Of a stretch of DNA of 42,379 nucleotides, positions 2,572 through 15,869 are shown piece after piece. The position numbers and the translations under genes were made by a program. How positions within the stretch are numbered: the stretch's first letter is position 1; each line of letters starts with the position of its first letter. The notes beneath the pieces were generated by a model that saw only the letters and a list, made by a program, of their open reading frames with translations, had not been told where the DNA came from and did no database searches. Source of the stretch: Acholeplasmatales bacterium DTU067 (GTDB lineage: Bacteria > Bacillota_I > Bacilli_A > ML615J-28 > CAG-698); the NCBI GenBank assembly GCA_001512995.1, contig LFRY01000037.1, positions 2,380 through 44,758 on the forward strand. The letters are read 5' to 3'.

Positions 2572-3585
2572 TCAGCCTCCGTAACCCTGCGGATTCATGC
2601 TCTGCCATTTCCAGTGCGAAGCGCACATTTCGTCGATTCCCCGCTCCGCTTTCCAGCCTAGTTCCCTTTCCGCTTTGCTTGGATCGGCGTAGCAGGCACC
2701 GATGTCCCCGGGGCGCCTTTCGACGACTCTATAAGGCAGTTCCTTCCCGCAGGCTTTCTCAAAAGCGCGGATCATTTCCAACACGCTAAAACCACTGCCC
2801 GTGCCGAGATTATAAATCTTCACGCCCGGCTCCTTCGACCTCTCCAAGGCCTTAATGTGCCCCAAAGCCAAATCAACGACATGGATGTAATCGCGGACCC
2901 CGGTACCGTCAGGTGTGTCGAAATCGTCCCCAAAGACTCTGATTTCCGGAAGCTTTCCGACGGCAACCTGGGCGATGAAGGGAACCAAATTGTTGGGAAT
3001 CCCGTTCGGGTCTTCCCCGATCAGCCCGCTTTCATGGGCACCGACGGGATTGAAATATCTTAAAATGGTGACGTTCCATTCATTGTCAGAACGGTGGAGA
3101 TCTTTCAGAATGTTTTCGATTATCAGTTTCGTCGCGCCGTAGGGATTGGTTACAGAAAGCCGGCAATCTTCATCGAGCGGAAGCCTCTCAGGCTCGCCGT
3201 AGACGGTTGCGGAAGAGGAAAAGATGATGCTTTTCACGCCCGCGCGTCCCATTGCCCTGAGCAGCGCCAAAGTGCCGCCCACATTGTTGTGATAGTATTC
3301 AAGGGGCATGCTGACGCTTTCGCCCACCGCCTTCAAGCCCGCGAAATGGATCACGCTTTCGATTTCGTTATTCCCGAAGATTTCATCGAGGAGTTCCTCG
3401 TCGCGGAGATCGCCCACATAAAAAGCGATGCTTTTTCCGGAGATTTTCTCGACCCTCCGTAAACTCTCTTCCGAGGAATTGGAAAGATTGTCAAGGACGA
3501 CGACCTGATGGCCCCTTTCCAAAAGTTCCAAGACCGTGTGGGAGCCGATGTAACCAGCTCCTCCGGTGACCAAGATTTTCTTCAT
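2572..3585 (-). CDS. galE: UDP-glucose 4-epimerase
   Basis: Interconverts UDP-galactose and UDP-glucose in the Leloir pathway, using tightly bound NAD. The ATG at 3585 is chosen because AGAGGTG sits 5 nt upstream; a GTG two codons earlier lacks that spacing. The 337-aa product matches the family length. It opens with the NAD-binding GGAGYIGSH (residues 8-16), then has the SSSATVYG active-site strand and the YGATK catalytic Tyr-Lys pair near residue 150. It also has [14 protein letters not shown] and the C-terminal [19 protein letters not shown] typical of GalE. Its ATG overlaps the stop of a galT remnant (ATGA), which suggests a former galT-galE operon. A truncated oxidoreductase follows immediately downstream. 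No own promoter was identified. Confidence 0.96.
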
Positions 3586-4136
3586 TTGCACACCTCTTTC
3601 AATCCTATGCTTTCCAAAAAGCGCATGAATCCGCGCCTGCCTGTTTCCGTATCTTTGAAAACGGCGATGTTTTCCAATATTTTCTCACAGATCCGCGCAA
3701 CTTCTTTTTTGCCTCTTTGTCTGCCGTGACCAACATATTTCGAAACGGGCGAGGGAAGATGGCAGCGCCCGAAAGGCTTTCAAATCACCCTCGAAACCAG
3801 GATTTGCAATCTCGCCCGTGAGCACAGCTTCCACAAAGCCAAGTTGACGCTTCAGGCGCGGGGGCAGAACGAAAAAGCCGCTCGCTTCGATCAAACCGAT
3901 CCCTTCGCTTAAATGGTATTCCGAATGGGCATGGAAAATACCGTCGGGATATTCCGTGCTCGTCCGGTTATTTCTCAATACCAAATCGAGGATATATCCT
4001 TTTCTTTTCTCGCAAGCACGGAAAAACCGTTATGGGACTCATTCGTGTATGCGATTATTCCATTTTCGAAATCTTCATTTTTTTCCCAGGAGGAAATAAT
4101 CTCCGCCGCCAATGCTTCAATTTCTTCTATGTCCCC
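3582..4136 (-). pseudogene. 3' remnant of a class II galT
   Basis: Three minus-strand stretches resemble the C-terminal third of the intact GalT encoded at 13264-14733. One matches around EALAAEIISSWEKNEDFENG and SHNGFSVLARKEK; the next reads DLVLRNNRTSTEYPDG and GIGLIEASGFFVLPPRLK; the last reads [16 protein letters not shown] and ends [10 protein letters not shown]. The intact copy has LILRNNHTTEDRPDG, IGLIEAMGLGILPGRLK and DAGVFKMDEEGQQAF at the same positions. The frame changes near 4006, where one A seems missing, and again between about 3690 and 3770, returning to the first frame. The 5' two thirds are gone and the remnant abuts the stop codon of the CDF transporter. Its TGA (3582-3584) overlaps the galE ATG, which preserves an old operon junction. 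Confidence 0.8.
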
Positions 4137-5450: not shown

Positions 5451-5474
5451 AAAAAAAGAGCAGAAGCTCTTTCA
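5451..5474 (-). terminator. Terminator after the DUF438 gene
   Basis: Minus-strand stem AAAGAGC / GCTCTTT with a TTCT loop and a run of T, overlapping the stop codon of the DUF438 gene. It closes the sugar-uptake operon before the arsR promoter. Confidence 0.75.
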
Positions 5475-6647
5475 TTCCCAATGTAAAAGTTTCCTTTCAC
5501 CCTCTAATTTTCTGATTTCCGTAACGTCCTGGCTCACTTCCAAAATTCCTTTGTATTCGCCTTTTTCGTTCCTCAGGGCATAATAATTTACGACCAGGAA
5601 GCGCCCCCGCGTCTCAAACCAAAACTTCGCCACATCCTTGTTTCCTTTTCTGAACTCAGATATGATTTCTTCTACAACATGCACGCTCTTTGGAGGATGG
5701 CAGTTTTTCACATCCCTACCGATGACCGCGGCCGTCCTCGGAAAAATCCTCTCAGGAGAATCATTGAAATATTTAACCCTATTGTTCTCATCCACAAATG
5801 TAATGTCTACTGGAAGGCGATTCAAAACCATAAGCAACTCAGCAAGCGTCATTCCCCCAGTTTTTGATGCGAATAATAAGTTCCCGTCTTCGCTTTTAAT
5901 ACTTGCTTCTGCTTTTTTTTCAGATTTTACTTCTAAAAATGAAAACCCAATTTCTGCTGCTTCATTATACAAATCCTTCCAATCGTCTTTATCCAATACC
6001 CGGGATGCGAGCGGAAGCACCAATAGTTCTTCTTTTTCCAAAATGCCATAAACCAGAAAGAAAAATTTTCCGATTTCTTGATTTAAATCAGGAGCATCGT
6101 TTTCAAATTTTTCTTGGAGAATGGTTAGTTTCGCTTTCGCATCATCATGAAGACTCCACATAATCTGCAAGGGTTTAGGATTAATGTTTTTCTTTTCTAG
6201 TTTTGGAAAAATGAGATACTGCATTTTTAAGAATCGCTTTTCCAACTCTTTAAATTTTAAAAGATATTTTACAAATTCTTCCTTTGGATACTTTTCTGGA
6301 TTCTTAATCAAATCTTTAAATTCCGAAAACTTATTTCTTATTGCCTCTCCTTCTTCCAATAAAAGCTTTATTAATGGCAAGGTTTTCCCTTTATCCCAAG
6401 GGTATAGTTTCAGGCTACGATGGAGGAGATTCATTAGTTTTCCGGCAATCTCTTTGATTCTTTCCGGCTCCAAATTAGCTTCTTCTTGAAGGAAAGAAAT
6501 CGAAAACACATCAAAAGGAGTGATGTTTTTAATAACCTCTTCGTTACCTAAGAAAAACTCTTTTAAGTTTTCTCCAGAAAGTAACCTTTTTACAAGTTCC
6601 GAAAGCACATCTTGTTTCAGTTTTTCGGTTTTTATTAATTCGCTCAT
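5472..6647 (-). CDS. DUF438 / hemerythrin-like / PAS domain protein
   Basis: Cytoplasmic 391-aa protein with no transmembrane segment. The first ~65 residues resemble the DUF438 domain. The all-helical middle (about residues 75-245) corresponds to the hemerythrin-like HHE region of this family, but few of its usual His ligands are visible (HRSLK, WSLHDDAK), so iron binding is doubtful. The C-terminus from about residue 270 is a PAS domain (LPVDITFVDENNRVKYFND, then RDVKNCHPPKSVHVVEEI and GILEVSQDVTEI). It starts 3 nt after the GH105 gene and ends at a terminator, so it is the last gene of the sugar operon. The role is probably sensing of a ligand or redox state. No output domain (kinase, GGDEF, HTH) is present. 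Confidence 0.8.
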   Translation of the reverse strand: MSELIKTEKLKQDVLSELVKRLLSGENLKEFFLGNEEVIKNITPFDVFSISFLQEEANLEPERIKEIAGKLMNLLHRSLKLYPWDKGKTLPLIKLLLEEGEAIRNKFSEFKDLIKNPEKYPKEEFVKYLLKFKELEKRFLKMQYLIFPKLEKKNINPKPLQIMWSLHDDAKAKLTILQEKFENDAPDLNQEIGKFFFLVYGILEKEELLVLPLASRVLDKDDWKDLYNEAAEIGFSFLEVKSEKKAEASIKSEDGNLLFASKTGGMTLAELLMVLNRLPVDITFVDENNRVKYFNDSPERIFPRTAAVIGRDVKNCHPPKSVHVVEEIISEFRKGNKDVAKFWFETRGRFLVVNYYALRNEKGEYKGILEVSQDVTEIRKLEGERKLLHWE

Positions 6648-6650
6648 ACT

Positions 6651-7715
6651 TTACACCAGCCAAGGTATTCTTTTTTCTTTTCCTATTTTTTCATAGGCAA
6701 TTGCAGCAAATATCAAAGCAGCAATACCATAACTCCAATTGTCATTCTTTGGTATTAATGTATAACCTAATTTCGGAAAAATATGAAGCGGTATGGTCGG
6801 AGCGCTGATATCCGTCAAAACTAACTTACCATTTTTATATTTAATTTTTGAAACTGCTGCTTCATAAGCTTTTATGCCAGCATCCAGGTATTTTTGATCC
6901 AAATAACCATGATTGACACCATGAATCAAACCGGCTGCAATTAGAGCAGTTCCAGAAGTCTCTTCATAAGAAGGCAGCATGAGCAAGGTCCTAAACATCC
7001 CATTCTCTTGTTGTGTCTTTACAATCGCTTCTGCGGTTCTTTGAAAACAAGAAAGAATTTCTTCTCTTTCTGGAGAGTCCCCAAGATAATCCAAAATTGA
7101 AGGGAGGGCAACCATTACCCATCCATTTCCACGCCCCCAAAATAAATTCTTCCGGGGATGGGGTTTACCTCTTTTTACCCAGTAAGAATGGTACCAAAGG
7201 CCGATTTCTTCATCAAATAAATATTTCTCATAGATATGGGGTTGCTTCCTTGCGATTTGCATCAGGGCATCATCCCCTTCAAGCCTCCCATATAAAGCCG
7301 GAAAGAGAGCAAACATCACTAAACTATCTACCCAAATTGATTTTGGATAGAACTTTCCAACGAAAGTATGCCCAAGATGGTTGACCGCATCTTCCAAAAT
7401 CCGTGGTTCATTCAATATATAATTTATTCCCTCATTAGTAAGTTCCAAATAGCGTTCAGTTCCCGCCATTTTATCAGTCAAATAAGTAATCAGAATTGGC
7501 GCAAGTCGATCCGCATGGTCTATTTTGGGACGGTTTTTTAAATAATATTCCGAATATTCCACCAGGAAGGGAAGGTTTTCTTTGGTTCCAAAAAATTCAT
7601 CAAGCATGAGCATCGCATAACCTAATAAGGCCTCTCCCCACATCCATTTCATTTTCGGGGAATTGTGTTCCCTATAATCTCTAACTAAATCCAGGACTTT
7701 TTTAAACTTATCCAT
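6651..7715 (-). CDS. GH105 family unsaturated glycosyl hydrolase
   Basis: Predicted to remove a 4,5-unsaturated uronic acid from the end of oligosaccharides made by polysaccharide lyases (YteR/YesR-like). The start at 7715 (MDKFKKVLDL) has GAGGGAG about 9 nt upstream; an ATG seven codons earlier has no well-placed site. The 354-aa product is a little shorter than typical YteR (about 370). Family landmarks are MKWMWGEALLGYAML, the active-site-like DHADRLAP region, WVDSLVMF, the tryptophan-rich WGRGNGWVM and SYEETSGTALIAAGL. No signal peptide is visible, so it should act in the cytoplasm on imported oligosaccharide. It overlaps the upstream 613-aa gene by 8 nt. The exact sugar is unknown. Confidence 0.87.
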   Translation of the reverse strand: MDKFKKVLDLVRDYREHNSPKMKWMWGEALLGYAMLMLDEFFGTKENLPFLVEYSEYYLKNRPKIDHADRLAPILITYLTDKMAGTERYLELTNEGINYILNEPRILEDAVNHLGHTFVGKFYPKSIWVDSLVMFALFPALYGRLEGDDALMQIARKQPHIYEKYLFDEEIGLWYHSYWVKRGKPHPRKNLFWGRGNGWVMVALPSILDYLGDSPEREEILSCFQRTAEAIVKTQQENGMFRTLLMLPSYEETSGTALIAAGLIHGVNHGYLDQKYLDAGIKAYEAAVSKIKYKNGKLVLTDISAPTIPLHIFPKLGYTLIPKNDNWSYGIAALIFAAIAYEKIGKEKRIPWLV

Positions 7716-9549
7716 ATTTTCTTGCTCCCTCATCATAATTCAAGAATAAATACTTATCTCCATATTTAAAATGATATTCCCCAGTCGTTGCTTCTGCTTG
7801 AACAAAGGGAAGTTCATAGCGTTTATAATTTGTATTTTCAACTTTGCCATCAACTATAAATATCTTCTTTTTAAACAGGATTTCTAAATCGTGTACCAAT
7901 TCATACTTTATGCTTTTTCTACCCAACTCAATTTTTGAATTTTGAATTGATTTATGAAAGAATTCAAAATTTGTTTCATCAGTACTCATAACAGTGATTG
8001 CCCAAGCTGTTTTCTTTCCTTCCTGAATCCATTCTTCTTCGTTAATCTTCTTTATTTTTTTCAGGCTCTTAATTCCGATCATACTTCTTCCTGAAATTCC
8101 GAACAAGTAATCCTCCCCGAAATACACCCTATCAAATTTTGCTTCCGGAAAATATAAATGCGTGAAATTGAGCCTTTTTCCTTCAAGAAAACCTTTCCTC
8201 GGTGTCAAATCATAGTAAAGCAATACTGTATTTTCATACTGGGCGGCATAGGGATTAATCCCATTTCCAACCCAATAGCTAGGGGAAAAATTCCGGGCAT
8301 TGTCGCTGAAGAAGGCTTTTCCGGGATGGGTTGTAAATACGGTGATTCCATCCCCCAGGGTTGCTTGACTGATGTGCTGTTGATCCCCAAATTCCCTGGG
8401 ATGATAGAGTTGCGCTGTTGATAAGAAATAATCTTTACTACGCAAGGTATAAGTGTTTGCTCTTTGGATGGCAATGCCCTGGGTAGCCGAATTTAGAATT
8501 TTTACCAAAAAGGGCAGGAGATTTAATTTTCTTAAGAAAGGTATGTCAACAATCTTTAAATCCTTCAGAAATATATTAGATTTTAGGTTCCAATTTCTAA
8601 ACATCTCCATCGTCATGGTAATTGATTGGGGGTTTGTAAAAGCTTCCATTGCCCAGTAATAAAGACCAACAGTTTCGATTTTATTTTCTGGATCTATTTT
8701 TTCTCTTACTTCTGATAAATCCAAACCGAGCGACTCTTTAAGAATAAATTTTTCTTTGCTTCTGGCAATATCAATTAAAACTTCTGGAACCCGGTATTTC
8801 TTATTCAAAACAAATTCCGCAGAAAGCCTTGTATAATCATATTCCCTTACCGGTCCAATCCCAAAAGCTTTCTTCATAATATCCAAAACATCCTGGCGAT
8901 TCGGGTCTTTTTTTTGTTCTTCGTAGCATCTTCCGCTTGTTGCAACAAAATACCCTTGATAATTATTGACGGCCATATCGAACAAAACCAAATCCATGAG
9001 CATTGATGCTTTAACCCTAATTTCTTCATCCTCTGAAAAATCAATCAAAAGGCTTAAAGGAGCAACATCTTCTTCATAATAGGTATTAGAATGCCATTCA
9101 ATAAAACCGTATTTATATCGATACTTAAACCAATCAAGGAGGCGTTTTTTCGCACGCTCCATTCTTTCTCTACCAGTAATGGGAAGGTTATAAAAAACTT
9201 TATCAGAGTAAAACTGACCTGCCAATAATTCGATGGTTCCGAAAATGAGTTGATGGTTTTCGCTCCAATAGCACATGCTATCTTCTCCGGGCTCGTCCAT
9301 CCAGTATTTAAAGCCCAGAACAGTTTTTTCGATTTCTTTTAATGTCGCTTCCGTCAACAAGGTAGAATATGCATAAAGCGTCCTCAGAATAGGGATCATC
9401 CGAAAATCTGCGCAGTCATATCTGTTATTAATATACTCCAATATTTCAATAATCTGGTTTTCTTCAATTTTCTTCCCCGAATCCAAGTCTTTAATTCCAG
9501 GAAAACATTTATAATTCATCTTAATTGACATTGGAATGTCCAAATTCAT
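7708..9549 (-). CDS. Unrecognised 613-aa protein, possible toroid-fold carbohydrate-active enzyme
   Basis: I do not recognise a named family. The product has no signal peptide and no membrane helix. The first ~330 residues are helical and rich in W, Y, E and H, with conserved-looking blocks: MCYWSENHQLIFGTIELLAGQ near residue 95, EWHSNTYYEEDVAPL, AVNNYQGYFVATSGRCY. The rest looks beta-rich (QQHISQATLGDGITVFTTHPG, then an NGINPYAAQYENTVLLYY block). A helical toroid followed by a beta-sandwich is the build of several lyases and hydrolases (heparinase II/III, alginate and chondroitin lyases), so a glycan-active enzyme is plausible. Its start shares one base with the GPH symporter stop (TGATG), with AAGGAG upstream, and its end overlaps the GH105 start. 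The position between importer and GH105 suggests it makes the unsaturated substrate. This is inference. Confidence 0.6.
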   Translation of the reverse strand: MNLDIPMSIKMNYKCFPGIKDLDSGKKIEENQIIEILEYINNRYDCADFRMIPILRTLYAYSTLLTEATLKEIEKTVLGFKYWMDEPGEDSMCYWSENHQLIFGTIELLAGQFYSDKVFYNLPITGRERMERAKKRLLDWFKYRYKYGFIEWHSNTYYEEDVAPLSLLIDFSEDEEIRVKASMLMDLVLFDMAVNNYQGYFVATSGRCYEEQKKDPNRQDVLDIMKKAFGIGPVREYDYTRLSAEFVLNKKYRVPEVLIDIARSKEKFILKESLGLDLSEVREKIDPENKIETVGLYYWAMEAFTNPQSITMTMEMFRNWNLKSNIFLKDLKIVDIPFLRKLNLLPFLVKILNSATQGIAIQRANTYTLRSKDYFLSTAQLYHPREFGDQQHISQATLGDGITVFTTHPGKAFFSDNARNFSPSYWVGNGINPYAAQYENTVLLYYDLTPRKGFLEGKRLNFTHLYFPEAKFDRVYFGEDYLFGISGRSMIGIKSLKKIKKINEEEWIQEGKKTAWAITVMSTDETNFEFFHKSIQNSKIELGRKSIKYELVHDLEILFKKKIFIVDGKVENTNYKRYELPFVQAEATTGEYHFKYGDKYLFLNYDEGARKYG

Positions 9550-10970
9550 CAGATGAACTCCTTCTTTATCTGTAAATATTTTTCCGCCTCTTCAACATCA
9601 AGTTCCATTCCTTCGTCCAATTTTTCATTTAGCCTTTTTATGTCATTACTTAAAGCTGGACTTAAGCGAAGGCGCTTTGAAATAAAGAAAGCCACAAGCA
9701 TCAATATGGAAAATCCAAAAAGCAGAATAAAACGAATCCCGAAGATAGCGGAAGCTGGTTGAGTTGGATTGGGATTGGCATCGGTTGGATTAATATAACC
9801 TGTAAACTGAAGTGCCAAACCTATGAGGAAAATAGCAAAAGCAGATGATGCCGTGCGAATGAAAGTCATAATCCCGGAACATGTCCCGGTTTTCCTTCCT
9901 TCTCGCGCCAAAGTCACAATGTCGACAACATCGGGGAACATCAACCAAGGTGTTGATTGTGCTCCGGCAAATCCCAATGCCGTTAATCCAGTAAAAATAT
10001 AAAGGGGTAATACGGGAGCGCCCTGTGGATAAAAAGCAATTCCAATTGCAGCAAGAATTGTAAGCGGTAAGCCAAATCGATATATTTTTGTTTTCGATTT
10101 CGTTTTTATCAGATGATAAATCGGTGCAAACATAATTAATTGTACACCTAAGAAGATACCTAAAAAGACTGTCGAAGAGATGTCAACCACATATTTTCTA
10201 TAATAAATAATTACCGCTGATGCAATATCCAAAGTTATGGCTTGACAAATATATAAATAAACCAATTTCCGAAATGATTTAACCTTCAGAGGAGAAACAA
10301 ATTCTTTTAAAGACAGTTTTTTCTTTTCCCCCTCCGCTTTCACCCTCTCTTTTACAAACAACCCAATTAAAATATGTGGAACCGCAAATACTATTCCAAA
10401 AACAAATACTAAAATGAAATAAAACGTTAGATAATCCAATTTGTTATCAGTAACCATTTCAAATAATAATGAAGGCACCAATGAACAAATAGCAGTAGAA
10501 ATCAATGAAAGAACCAACCGTAATGTGTTAATCTTATTTCTATCATGGAAATCAGTTGCAACTTCTGCGCTCATGGAGCTATATGGCACCATAATCAAAG
10601 TATTTACCGAGAAATAAAATAAATAAGTCAACAGAACATAAACTGTCTTCCAAAAATCACTTTCAGCATTGATGGGAAGCCAGAGAAGTGCCAAAGCAGG
10701 AAGGAGAAGAATACCACCAATTAAAATATATGGTCTTCTTCTGCCAATTCTTGTTCGTGTATTGTCAGAAATTGTCCCCATTAATGGGTCATTGATTGCA
10801 TCCCATGCTTTAGAAATAAAAATGACGGTCCCAGCAATAGCCGGATCAACTCCGATTATATCTGTCAAAAAGATCAGATATATAACCGAAATTATTGTCT
10901 GACCGCCCCCTCCATATAGATCTCCTAAAGCAAAAAACCAAGTTTCTTTTTTCGATAGTTTTGATTCCAT
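9549..10970 (-). CDS. GPH-family sugar:cation symporter
   Basis: Integral membrane importer of the glycoside-pentoside-hexuronide family (MelB/XynP/YicJ type), 473 aa with about 12 hydrophobic segments. Family landmarks are at the N-terminus: KKETWFFALGDLYGGGGQ and the helix 1-3 region KAWDAINDPLMGTISDNT, followed by RIGRRRPYILIGG. The DP pair and the cytoplasmic R(I)GRRRP loop are diagnostic. The C-terminal cytoplasmic tail is typical. The ATG at 10970 follows GGGGGAAG. It is the first gene of an operon with the 613-aa protein, GH105 hydrolase and DUF438 protein, so the cargo is probably an acidic oligosaccharide or disaccharide. A promoter with an overlapping cre-like site lies upstream. 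Confidence 0.93.
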   Translation of the reverse strand: MESKLSKKETWFFALGDLYGGGGQTIISVIYLIFLTDIIGVDPAIAGTVIFISKAWDAINDPLMGTISDNTRTRIGRRRPYILIGGILLLPALALLWLPINAESDFWKTVYVLLTYLFYFSVNTLIMVPYSSMSAEVATDFHDRNKINTLRLVLSLISTAICSLVPSLLFEMVTDNKLDYLTFYFILVFVFGIVFAVPHILIGLFVKERVKAEGEKKKLSLKEFVSPLKVKSFRKLVYLYICQAITLDIASAVIIYYRKYVVDISSTVFLGIFLGVQLIMFAPIYHLIKTKSKTKIYRFGLPLTILAAIGIAFYPQGAPVLPLYIFTGLTALGFAGAQSTPWLMFPDVVDIVTLAREGRKTGTCSGIMTFIRTASSAFAIFLIGLALQFTGYINPTDANPNPTQPASAIFGIRFILLFGFSILMLVAFFISKRLRLSPALSNDIKRLNEKLDEGMELDVEEAEKYLQIKKEFI

Positions 10971-11135: not shown

Positions 11136-11172
11136 TAAAAAAGCAGAAGAGATTGTCAACCTCTTCTGCTTT
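11136..11172 (-). terminator. Terminator after tRNA-Lys
   Basis: A 12-bp stem AAAGCAGAAGAG / CTCTTCTGCTTT with a 9-nt loop and a T-run on the minus strand, 52 nt beyond the tRNA 3' end. Confidence 0.85.
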
Positions 11173-13263: not shown

Positions 13264-14733
13264 TCATAATGACTTCAAAAATTCTCTGAACGCTTGCTGT
13301 CCTTCCTCATCCATCTTAAAGACGCCGGCATCTTTCAAAACTTCGGAAAAGACCTTTCCCGCTTCTTCCAAGACAAAACCAGCGGCATCTGTTTCCGGAT
13401 TGTATCTGTCCTTTATTCTTTCAACCCAATGCCAGTGTTTTTTCAGCCTTTCATCCCGGCCCGCTTCCTCATCGCCCGAGAGGAATCTGCCAATCAAATC
13501 AAATTCGGTTTTCAACCGTCCGGGAAGAATTCCCAAACCCATCGCTTCGATCAAACCGATGTTTTCCTTCTTGATGTGGTGGAATGCCTGCCGGGGATGG
13601 AAAACGCCGTCAGGCCGGTCTTCGGTCGTGTGATTGTTTCTTAGGATCAGATCGAAAACATAGAATTCTTCTTCTTTACGGGAAATCGGAGTGATCGTGT
13701 TGTGAGGTTCCTCTTTTGAATTGACGATCAAAAGGTCCTTGTTTTCGTACTCCCTCCAGGCATCCAAGATGTGGGCGGCATAATCAATCAGGCTTTCCCT
13801 GTTCCTGGACTTAATCCGTACGGTGCTCAGGGGCCAGCGCAATGCGTAAACTTCGACGTCTCCGGCCTTCCTGAAGAATTCCGCTTCCGCATCCTCAATC
13901 GGGAAACGGTATCTTCCCGACTGGTAATGTTCGTGGTTCAGAATCGAACCGCCGACGATCGGCAGTTCGGCATTGGAGCCGACAAAATATTCCGGGAAAT
14001 AGTCGAGGAAATCCGCGAGCTTAATGAAAGTTCCGCGGTTGATGACCATCGGCACATGCTCTTTATTCAAAACGATGGAATGCTCTTCGAAATAAGAATA
14101 AGGGGAATATTGGAAAAACCAGGGTTCGCTGTTTAAGTTTAGGGGTATGATCCGGAGATTGCTTCTCCCGTCATAGCCGATGTGCCCGCGGTAACCCTCG
14201 TTTTCCAGGCAGAGATGGCATTTCGGATAACCCGATTTCTGTCCTTTTTGGAGCGCGATCAGGCGCGGATCCTTTTCCGGTTTGGAGAGATTGATGGTGA
14301 GATCAATCGTCCCGTATTCAGCCCCATGCTTCCATTTGATGTTCTGAGCGATTCTTTTTGTTTGGATGTAATTGACATCCTTGGAAAGCTTATACAGATA
14401 ATCCGTCGCCTTCCGCGGAGATTCTTTATAGAATGCATGGAATTTTCTGATGACTTCTTTGGGGCGATCCATCAATAAATCGATCGTTTTTGCTTTGAAA
14501 TTGTCCCTGGAGACGATGTCGTCTTCCCCAAGGATGCCGTTTTCCAAAGCATAGGCAGTCAGATCGTCCAGAATCGCGTCCAGGTCACGGGCTTTGATTT
14601 CTTCCTTCGTAAATCCTTTTTCTCCGAAGAAATCAATCAAGAGATTCGTTGCATAAGCATAATCCGCCTCTTCCAGAATCCCTTTTTCCAAAGCATAGGC
14701 GAGGAGTTCGTTGATCAAAGCATTGATTCTCAT
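13264..14733 (-). CDS. galT: UDP-glucose--hexose-1-phosphate uridylyltransferase, class II
   Basis: Transfers UMP from UDP-glucose to galactose-1-phosphate in the Leloir pathway. The 489-aa length and sequence match the Firmicutes class II GalT (GalT_N/GalT_C), not the shorter E. coli type. The first ~110 residues are the helical N-terminal part (INALINELLAYALEKGILEE). Landmarks include YPKCHLCLENEGYRG, the SILNHEHYQSGRYRFPIE active-site block with its His residues, and LRNNHTTEDRPDGVFHPR near the C-terminus. The ATG overlaps the galK stop (ATGA). A decayed copy of the same gene lies beside galE at 3582-4136, so this copy supplies the activity. Confidence 0.96.
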   Translation of the reverse strand: MRINALINELLAYALEKGILEEADYAYATNLLIDFFGEKGFTKEEIKARDLDAILDDLTAYALENGILGEDDIVSRDNFKAKTIDLLMDRPKEVIRKFHAFYKESPRKATDYLYKLSKDVNYIQTKRIAQNIKWKHGAEYGTIDLTINLSKPEKDPRLIALQKGQKSGYPKCHLCLENEGYRGHIGYDGRSNLRIIPLNLNSEPWFFQYSPYSYFEEHSIVLNKEHVPMVINRGTFIKLADFLDYFPEYFVGSNAELPIVGGSILNHEHYQSGRYRFPIEDAEAEFFRKAGDVEVYALRWPLSTVRIKSRNRESLIDYAAHILDAWREYENKDLLIVNSKEEPHNTITPISRKEEEFYVFDLILRNNHTTEDRPDGVFHPRQAFHHIKKENIGLIEAMGLGILPGRLKTEFDLIGRFLSGDEEAGRDERLKKHWHWVERIKDRYNPETDAAGFVLEEAGKVFSEVLKDAGVFKMDEEGQQAFREFLKSL

Positions 14734-15869
14734 AGCTCTCGCGCCCCGCTTCCGACACGAACGAGATAGAAATCGGCAGCAAGCCCGGTCCTTTCCTGGT
14801 ATTCGGGCCCCACCTTTTCAATCATCGTTTCCGCGGCATCCGCCTTCACAAGTGCGATCGCGCAGCCTCCGAAACCTGCTCCGGTCATGCGCGCCCCCAA
14901 TGCGCCGTGTTTCAGAAAGAGTTCCTGCATGCTGTCGAGTTCGTGTCCCGTCACTTCATAATCATCGCGGAGCGAAGCGTGCGAGGCATTGAGCAAAGCC
15001 CCGAACTCCCGCAGGTCGCCTTTTTCAAGCGCGCGGTAAGCCTCCTTCGTCCTTTCGTTTTCTGTGACTGCATGCCGCACGCGCCTAAAGAGAACTTCAT
15101 CCTGCAACAGGGCTTCGCATTCCGGAAGTTCTTTGCTTGTGAGGTCGCAGAGAGCATTGATCTTGAAACGTCCCTGGAGGATTTGCAAAGCCTTTTCGCA
15201 TTCCTCCCGCCTCTCGTTATATTTCGAGGATGCGAGTGTGCGTTTTTTGTTCGTATTGCCGATGAGGAGGATGTGTTCCCCCAAATCTATTTTTACAAAA
15301 TAATGCTCCAAATCGGAAGTGTTGAGGAGAATGCCGCTTTCTTCCCTGGCCATGCCGATGATGAATTGGTCCATGATTCCGCATTTGACGCCGATGAACT
15401 CATTTTCGGCCCTATGCGCGGCTTTCACGATTTCCAGCGCCGAAAAACCCAATCCGAACAAATTATTCACGACGACGCCGACCAACACCTCCAAGGAGGC
15501 GCTTGAAGAGAGCCCGGCGCCGTTAGGGATGTTCCCGCTGACATAGAGGTTAAAGCCCTGCTCCACCCCGAGTTCCTTGCACATCCCTTTTACAAAATTC
15601 GCCCAATCATCCTCGGCGCGGTATTTTAAGTCTAATAGGGAAAAATTGACGGTTCCGATTTCCGGAAAATTCTCTGAATAACAAGAAACGACATCATCTT
15701 CCCTTGCCTGGGCGACGCCATAAGTGCCGAGATCCAAAGCGCAGGGAAGGACATAACCGCCGTTATAATCGATGTGTTCTCCTATCAAATTAATGCGTCC
15801 CGGAGCGAAAAAAGAACGATGGCCGTCTCCGGGAAAAATTTTCTTGGCTTTTTCAATCAAATTTTCCAT
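14730..15869 (-). CDS. galK: Galactokinase
   Basis: Phosphorylates alpha-galactose with ATP to galactose-1-phosphate in the cytoplasm; GHMP kinase family, 379 aa, normal length. The N-terminal galactokinase signature is FFAPGRINLIGEHIDYNGGYVLP. The ATP-binding GHMP motif is PNGAGLSSSASLEV, followed by the catalytic-Asp region KCGIMDQFI. The C-terminal glycine-rich motif is RMTGAGFGGCAIALV. The ATG at 15869 follows GGAG by 7 nt. It is the first gene of galK-galT-nucleotidase, transcribed from a consensus promoter at 15895-15923 that is overlapped by a 7-bp inverted repeat. Confidence 0.97.
   Translation of the reverse strand: MENLIEKAKKIFPGDGHRSFFAPGRINLIGEHIDYNGGYVLPCALDLGTYGVAQAREDDVVSCYSENFPEIGTVNFSLLDLKYRAEDDWANFVKGMCKELGVEQGFNLYVSGNIPNGAGLSSSASLEVLVGVVVNNLFGLGFSALEIVKAAHRAENEFIGVKCGIMDQFIIGMAREESGILLNTSDLEHYFVKIDLGEHILLIGNTNKKRTLASSKYNERREECEKALQILQGRFKINALCDLTSKELPECEALLQDEVLFRRVRHAVTENERTKEAYRALEKGDLREFGALLNASHASLRDDYEVTGHELDSMQELFLKHGALGARMTGAGFGGCAIALVKADAAETMIEKVGPEYQERTGLAADFYLVRVGSGAREL

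Follow-up and report, generated by a model that had tools for sequence, protein, structure and literature searches.

A predicted cytoplasmic oligosaccharide lyase of toroid and beta-sandwich fold, encoded between a sugar symporter and a GH105 hydrolase in an Acholeplasmatales bacterium

The operon and its surroundings

The stretch of DNA analysed here (the window, 42,379 nucleotides) comes from Acholeplasmatales bacterium DTU067 (GCA_001512995.1, LFRY01000037.1, positions 2,380 to 44,758, forward strand). Its minus strand carries a tightly packed operon of four genes, in the order GPH symporter, a 613-aa protein, GH105 and a PAS/hemerythrin-like protein (Table 1). The operon is closed by a terminator-like hairpin, and another such hairpin lies behind the upstream tRNA-Lys gene, with a TATAAT box between it and the GPH start; all of these signals were recognized by consensus only.

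The preliminary description of this DNA had placed the 613-aa protein between a GPH importer and a GH105 hydrolase, and both neighbours were confirmed. The GPH gene matched MFS_2 (PF13347) in Pfam with E=1.6e-62, above its cut-off, and TIGR00792 with E=4.1e-57 but 193.8 bits, i.e., under the curated cut-off of 231. The GH105 gene matched Glyco_hydro_88 (Pfam, E=1.4e-55) as well as PDB entries that bear the name GH105, and when set against solved GH105 chains it keeps the catalytic residues, the Asp of IWVDSL and the His of LWYHSY. We left aside an NCBIfam label for the same gene, BglB beta-galactosidase (E=2.7e-38, 132 bits vs a cut-off of 420). The PAS + hemerythrin-like gene is kept at the operon end only within the genus (L002, L041).

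The GC3 of the four operon genes (5472-10970) is 0.31-0.37, as against 0.53-0.67 in sampled neighbouring genes, and congeners with uniformly low GC3 have this operon too, next to the CDF transporter gene that adjoins it here; the cassette may thus have arrived as a unit from a low-GC relative. Probable Leloir genes galE, galT and galK flank the operon by a few kb (2572-3591, 13264-15869), with a GC like that of the surroundings and unlike that of the operon; galK was recognized by Pfam and the others by eye.

Table 1. Features of the operon and of related clusters discussed in the text
Feature	Position	Strand	Basis
GPH-family (MFS_2) sugar:cation symporter, proposed oligosaccharide importer	9549..10970	(-)	Pfam, NCBIfam
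613-aa predicted cytoplasmic oligosaccharide lyase	7708..9549	(-)	ORF, AF2 models, Foldseek
WSENHQ, residues 95-100; N98-H99 proposed carboxylate neutraliser	9250..9267	(-)	conservation, analogy with PL17/PL15/PL40
EWHSNTYYEED, residues 151-161; Y157 proposed catalytic acid/base	9067..9099	(-)	conservation, Asn-Tyr spacing 59
ATSGRCY, residues 203-209; R207 and Y209 proposed active-site residues	8923..8943	(-)	conservation
GDQQHISQATL, residues 388-398; first beta-sandwich strands; H392 candidate second base	8356..8388	(-)	conservation
GH105 unsaturated-uronyl hydrolase	6651..7736	(-)	Pfam, PDB sequences, catalytic residues
PAS + hemerythrin-like protein, final operon gene	5472..6647	(-)	Pfam
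Terminator-like hairpin closing the operon	5454..5473	(-)	consensus scan only
Terminator-like hairpin behind the upstream tRNA-Lys gene	11140..11172	(-)	consensus only
Membrane-anchored paralogs	L005 1875-4070, L006 3609-5780, L039 8110-10284, L040 6556-8742, L045 3103-5064		
Xylose-isomerase-like/sugar isomerase genes	L039 10287-11045, L007 3042-3902, L045 7717-8481, L034 11836-12726		

The 613-aa gene

The coordinates given earlier for the 613-aa reading frame were exact, and to them we add its strand, which had been omitted: the ATG is at 9549 and the stop ends at 7708 on the minus strand. The start shares 1 base with the GPH stop and is preceded by AAGGAG; at the other end of the gene, 29 bases are shared with the start of GH105. 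Compared with a congeneric genome at 76% identity, the gene shows 110/67/290 changes at codon positions 1/2/3, and compared with a second one at 71% identity 132/87/325, i.e., it is under coding constraint. A chance ORF was dismissed because of the gene overlaps, the AAGGAG and this codon-position divergence.

The preliminary description had also remarked on the absence of a signal peptide, and a signal peptide is indeed not apparent: the first ~50 residues contain no hydrophobic segment, the best Kyte-Doolittle 17-mer having a mean of 0.35, versus 2.1-3.2 in secreted or anchored relatives.

Sequence searches and predicted fold

Nothing significant was found for the 613-aa protein in Pfam, NCBIfam or the PDB sequences, and a profile built from 14 relatives returned nothing from the PDB sequences at E up to 10. 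No significant Pfam model was found when each of these 14 members was scanned; the absent models include PF07940 (Hepar_II_III, PL12/PL21), which was likewise missing from the 613-aa protein, and neither PF05426 (Alginate_lyase, PL5/PL17 N-domain) nor the PL8 models (Lyase_8) matched the family. The alignment by hhalign of the family profile with a small set of eight PF07940 (heparinase II/III) proteins gave a probability near 0, and the window's genome yielded no match to PF07940 or PF05426. Three stray matches, PRK04452 (NCBIfam, E=0.17), Lpg0393_VPS9 (Pfam, E=0.021) for a single member and CLIPR-59 (phmmer, E=1.8), were dismissed, the first two as chance. A confident match to a non-carbohydrate family, which would have spoken against the earlier reading, was therefore found neither in the three libraries nor in the profile searches.

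Two AF2 models of the protein were computed, one from a 14-sequence alignment (pLDDT 81.9, pTM 0.87) and one from a 17-sequence alignment (pLDDT 86.4, pTM 0.91). Both predict a helical domain at about residues 19-355 followed by an antiparallel beta-sandwich at about 364-613, with lower confidence at residues 300-360 and 410-424, and so bear out the helical and beta-sandwich build that had been guessed from the sequence. In a Foldseek search of the PDB with the first model, the top 13 matches were all toroid polysaccharide lyases (PL12, 15, 8, 35, 39, 17); with the second, the top 24 were such lyases, PL21 and PL33 included, bar one entry of dermatan sulfate epimerase 1. The matches comprised heparinase III (PL12), GAGase II/VII (PL35), heparinase II (PL21), Atu3025 (PL15), BtPL33, chondroitin AC/ABC lyases (PL8), Alg17c (PL17), Dp0100 (PL39) and the epimerase. 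The best E-values were 1.5e-5 and 7.3e-6 for the two models (prob 1.00), whereas TM-scores against individual lyases did not exceed 0.38 and identities were about 10%. Since E-values of this order (best 7e-6) are modest and the TM-scores low, the protein can be assigned to the superfamily and has no close match within it. A lack of the toroid fold, which would have undone the preliminary reading, is thus not what the models predict; the relation to the heparinases rests on the predicted structure only, because sequence, profile and hhalign comparisons gave nothing.

Conserved residues and a candidate active site

The blocks WSENHQ, EWHSNTYYEED and ATSGRCY, singled out beforehand as strongly patterned, could each be located in the protein (Table 1). 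E97, N98, H99, E151, Y157, D161, R207 and Y209 are identical in all members covering them (26/26), archaeal and proteobacterial ones included, D186 is likewise invariant, and Q390 and H464 are kept in 27/27 members. In the AF2 model E97, N98 and H99 sit at the N-terminus of helix 97-113; N98 and Y157 each begin a helix, with one long helix between them.

In the toroid lyases the neutraliser is an Asn, often followed by a His, and the acid or base is a Tyr, the residues being N240/Y294 in PL12, N336-H337/Y390 in the PL15 exoheparinase, N201-H202/Y258 in PL17, N192/Y246 in PL35, N183/Y242 in PL8 and N245/Y305 in PL40 (PMC12088678, PMC12915356, PMC4765187, PMC11921355). The published spacings from Asn to Tyr are 54 (PL12, PL15 exoheparinase, PL35), 57 (PL17), 59 (PL8) and 60 (PL40) residues (PMC12088678 Table 4, PMC12915356). 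The invariant pair N98 and Y157 lies 59 residues apart, which fits this range of 54-60, and by analogy N98, H99 and Y157 are proposed as the catalytic set. The second base is uncertain, for H392, which would correspond naturally to the sandwich His of other lyases, occurs in most members but not in all: in the anchored paralogs it is displaced by one position, and L038 lacks it. Residue 148, nine before the Tyr and the site of the catalytic His in PL8, is Gly in all members. In the L038 member, on a Subdoligranulum plasmid (8942-11491), QEN replaces Q-x-H and the position of Y158 is occupied by Leu; this protein may be inactive or of different specificity.

The family and its gene clusters

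Relatives with 29-76% identity were found in 13 genome contigs, from Acholeplasmataceae, other Tenericutes, Clostridiales, Spirochaetes, Anaerolineales, Caldilineaceae and Propionibacterium. Matches occurred in 10/296 genomes of the class, the window's own counted, and on 199 plasmid records, mostly of Rhizobium but also of Haladaptatus, Catenovulum and Photobacterium; the members in those annotated plasmid records that were checked are labelled hypothetical protein. The family is thus conserved across Acholeplasmatales, Clostridia, Spirochaetes, Chloroflexi, Actinobacteria, Proteobacteria and haloarchaea.

A GH105 gene belongs to the cluster in the window and at all 17 other distinct close-relative loci with enough sequence, directly adjacent to the family gene save in L045, where it is about 3 kb off and beside an anchored paralog; a GPH gene is present in the same cluster at 17/17 of these other loci. 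A GH88/105 gene is also found near the Rhizobium, Catenovulum, Photobacterium and Subdoligranulum relatives, and the neighbours in Rhizobium include GH28 and a sugar ABC transporter. In L008 (1729-4653) a single ORF of 974 aa joins the family protein to GH105, on one MAG contig, so that this fusion is possibly an assembly artefact. GH105 is not next to the family gene at L013 (a secreted form), L014 (a long form, which adjoins a GH4 gene) and L034 (archaeal).

Some clusters contain genes of the pathway for the GH105 product, i.e., KduI, KduD, KDG kinase and KDPG aldolase. L045 has KduI (E=1.9e-136) and KduD (E=8e-123). KDG kinase and KDPG aldolase are present in both L004 and L007, in L004 together with KduD and a KdgR-like regulator and in L007 together with a KduI-family protein; across the three clusters the dehydrogenase is KduD or a KduD-like SDR. 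In the window's genome KduI (NF002091, E=4.4e-134) lies beside KDPG aldolase. No KduD at the curated cut-off was found in this genome, which is 90% complete; the best candidate is a sub-threshold SDR nearer to gluconate 5-dehydrogenase than to KduD. The same genome has a separate pectin cluster (G000 contig C35, 7081-13029; L058) with a second GH105, a GH28 polygalacturonase, an SDR and a pectin-esterase-like gene. No alginate genes were seen near family members.

A second, N-terminally anchored paralog of 650-730 aa is present in clusters of Acholeplasmatales and of G068, and probably acts outside the cell as partner of the cytoplasmic enzyme. A xylose-isomerase-like TIM barrel (AP_endonuc_2) or sugar isomerase/epimerase recurs in the clusters, bacterial and haloarchaeal.

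Proposed function

The interpretation that we consider very probable is that the 613-aa protein is a cytoplasmic poly- or oligosaccharide lyase of the (alpha/alpha) toroid and beta-sandwich superfamily, and the founder of a family absent from the Pfam, NCBIfam and PDB libraries. The preliminary description had seen in it an intracellular lyase acting on imported oligosaccharides and feeding GH105; the fold, the adjacency and the fusion to GH105, and the KduI/KduD/KDG pathway all support this, and the lyase activity, with its product as the substrate of GH105, is what these analogies suggest.

The GPH symporter would import an oligosaccharide containing uronic acid, which the lyase would hold between its two domains. 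By analogy with known enzymes, N98 with H99 would neutralise the carboxylate at +1, the C5 proton would pass to H99, to Y157 itself or to the sandwich residue H392 as base, and Y157 would protonate the leaving oxygen; this beta-elimination would leave a 4,5-unsaturated uronyl residue at the new non-reducing end. The unsaturated uronyl residue freed by a GH105 opens to DKI. In the proposed scheme the co-encoded GH105 would carry out this removal, and KduI, a KduD-like dehydrogenase, KDG kinase and KDPG aldolase would then lead to pyruvate and triose phosphate. Repeated cycles of lyase and GH105 could shorten the chain inside the cell, and in several relatives the membrane-anchored paralog may make the first cuts outside. 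The substrate is probably a pectic or other uronate glycan, a pectic oligosaccharide being favoured because of the GH28 and KdgR-like neighbours and the pectin genes of the host; it would be of plant origin, with glucuronan or arabinogalactan side chains as alternatives.

The protein might instead belong, as a strongly divergent member, to one of the existing toroid families (PL12/15/17/21/8/33/35/39/40, or another CAZy family or PL0 entry), whose fold and Asn-His...Tyr arrangement it shares. This we regard as improbable, given that the 14 members scanned have no Pfam model bar the chance match at E=0.02, that the profile search of the PDB sequences was empty to E 10, and that hhalign against the eight PF07940 proteins gave a probability of about 0. 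The rank of dermatan sulfate epimerase 1, fifth in the second Foldseek search, would agree with a uronate C5-epimerase or other proton-abstracting enzyme of this fold which would modify the oligosaccharide before GH105, or a lyase elsewhere, acts on it. But the 4,5-unsaturated uronyl end on which GH105 acts would then have no source in the operon, which would lack a lyase, while KduI/KduD in related clusters and the direct fusion to GH105 indicate lyase products, which makes this the least probable of the readings considered.

Scarcely more probable is that the protein hydrolyses glycosides, or that it binds sugar as a non-catalytic partner of GH105, and has a helical and beta-sandwich fold by coincidence. 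The toroid families GH95, GH127/146 and GH63 do appear in the fold search, and one relative adjoins the GH4 gene mentioned above, yet the hydrolases rank much lower, with E >= 0.02 and mostly about 200-300 residues aligned, whereas the lyases align from end to end; among the invariant residues are the Asn-His and Tyr of the lyases, though E97, E151, D161 and D186 are invariant as well.

If the lyase reading is true, one more lyase family is gained that accounts for GH105 genes without a visible lyase partner, and small-genome relatives of the mycoplasmas acquire a complete intracellular route for acidic glycans. The proposal itself already supplies a function that can be tested for a family widespread from Acholeplasmatales to rhizobia and haloarchaea. 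To the fuller proposal, a new PL family, mainly cytoplasmic and oligosaccharide-specific, that cycles with GH105, in one lineage fused to it, in bacteria and haloarchaea on a glycan without a described intracellular lyase step, we give even chances.

Comparison with known systems

The best fold match is the PL12 heparinase III (4FNV, 4MMH), with its Asn...Tyr pair 54 residues apart and its sandwich His; it is exported and acts on heparan sulfate, whereas the 613-aa protein is predicted to be cytoplasmic, is encoded beside GH105 and has no detectable sequence relation to it. The PL17/PL15 oligo-alginate lyases (Alg17C, Atu3025) resemble it in fold, in the Asn-His or His with the Tyr 54-57 residues later, and in having oligosaccharides as substrates, but they release monomers that need no GH105 and give no sequence match with the family. 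The ulvan lyase Uly1040 (PL40) likewise combines toroid and sandwich, with Asn245, Tyr305 (spacing 60) and the sandwich His485, and its Trp246, which follows Asn245, is His in some homologues; what sets it apart is its size of 97 kDa, its endolytic action, its marine bacterial source and a Mn-linked His-x-His, where the 613-aa protein has Q390-x-H392. The PL8 chondroitin/hyaluronate lyases share the fold and exactly the spacing of 59, but their catalytic His, nine before the Tyr, is replaced here by Gly148. Dermatan sulfate epimerase 1, similar in overall fold and among the Foldseek matches, is a human C5-epimerase without a GH105 partner. The PL22 oligogalacturonate lyase is also cytoplasmic and works on imported oligosaccharides, but it has a beta-propeller fold and yields DKI directly without GH105.

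Enzymes of PL15, PL17 and PL22 are known cytoplasmic oligosaccharide lyases. Of the new activity or family that the preliminary description had foreseen, the family therefore stands as new against the libraries searched, whereas a cytoplasmic oligosaccharide lyase is a kind already known; the novelty lies in this family and in the way it is coupled to GH105. The novelty of the family was judged against Pfam, NCBIfam and the PDB, and it possibly coincides with an unclassified or recent PL entry in CAZy. In the open-access literature neither an intracellular lyase paired with GH105 nor a recently named PL family that would fit was found, and the pairing of GH105 with a cytoplasmic lyase, up to their fusion, appears to be new.
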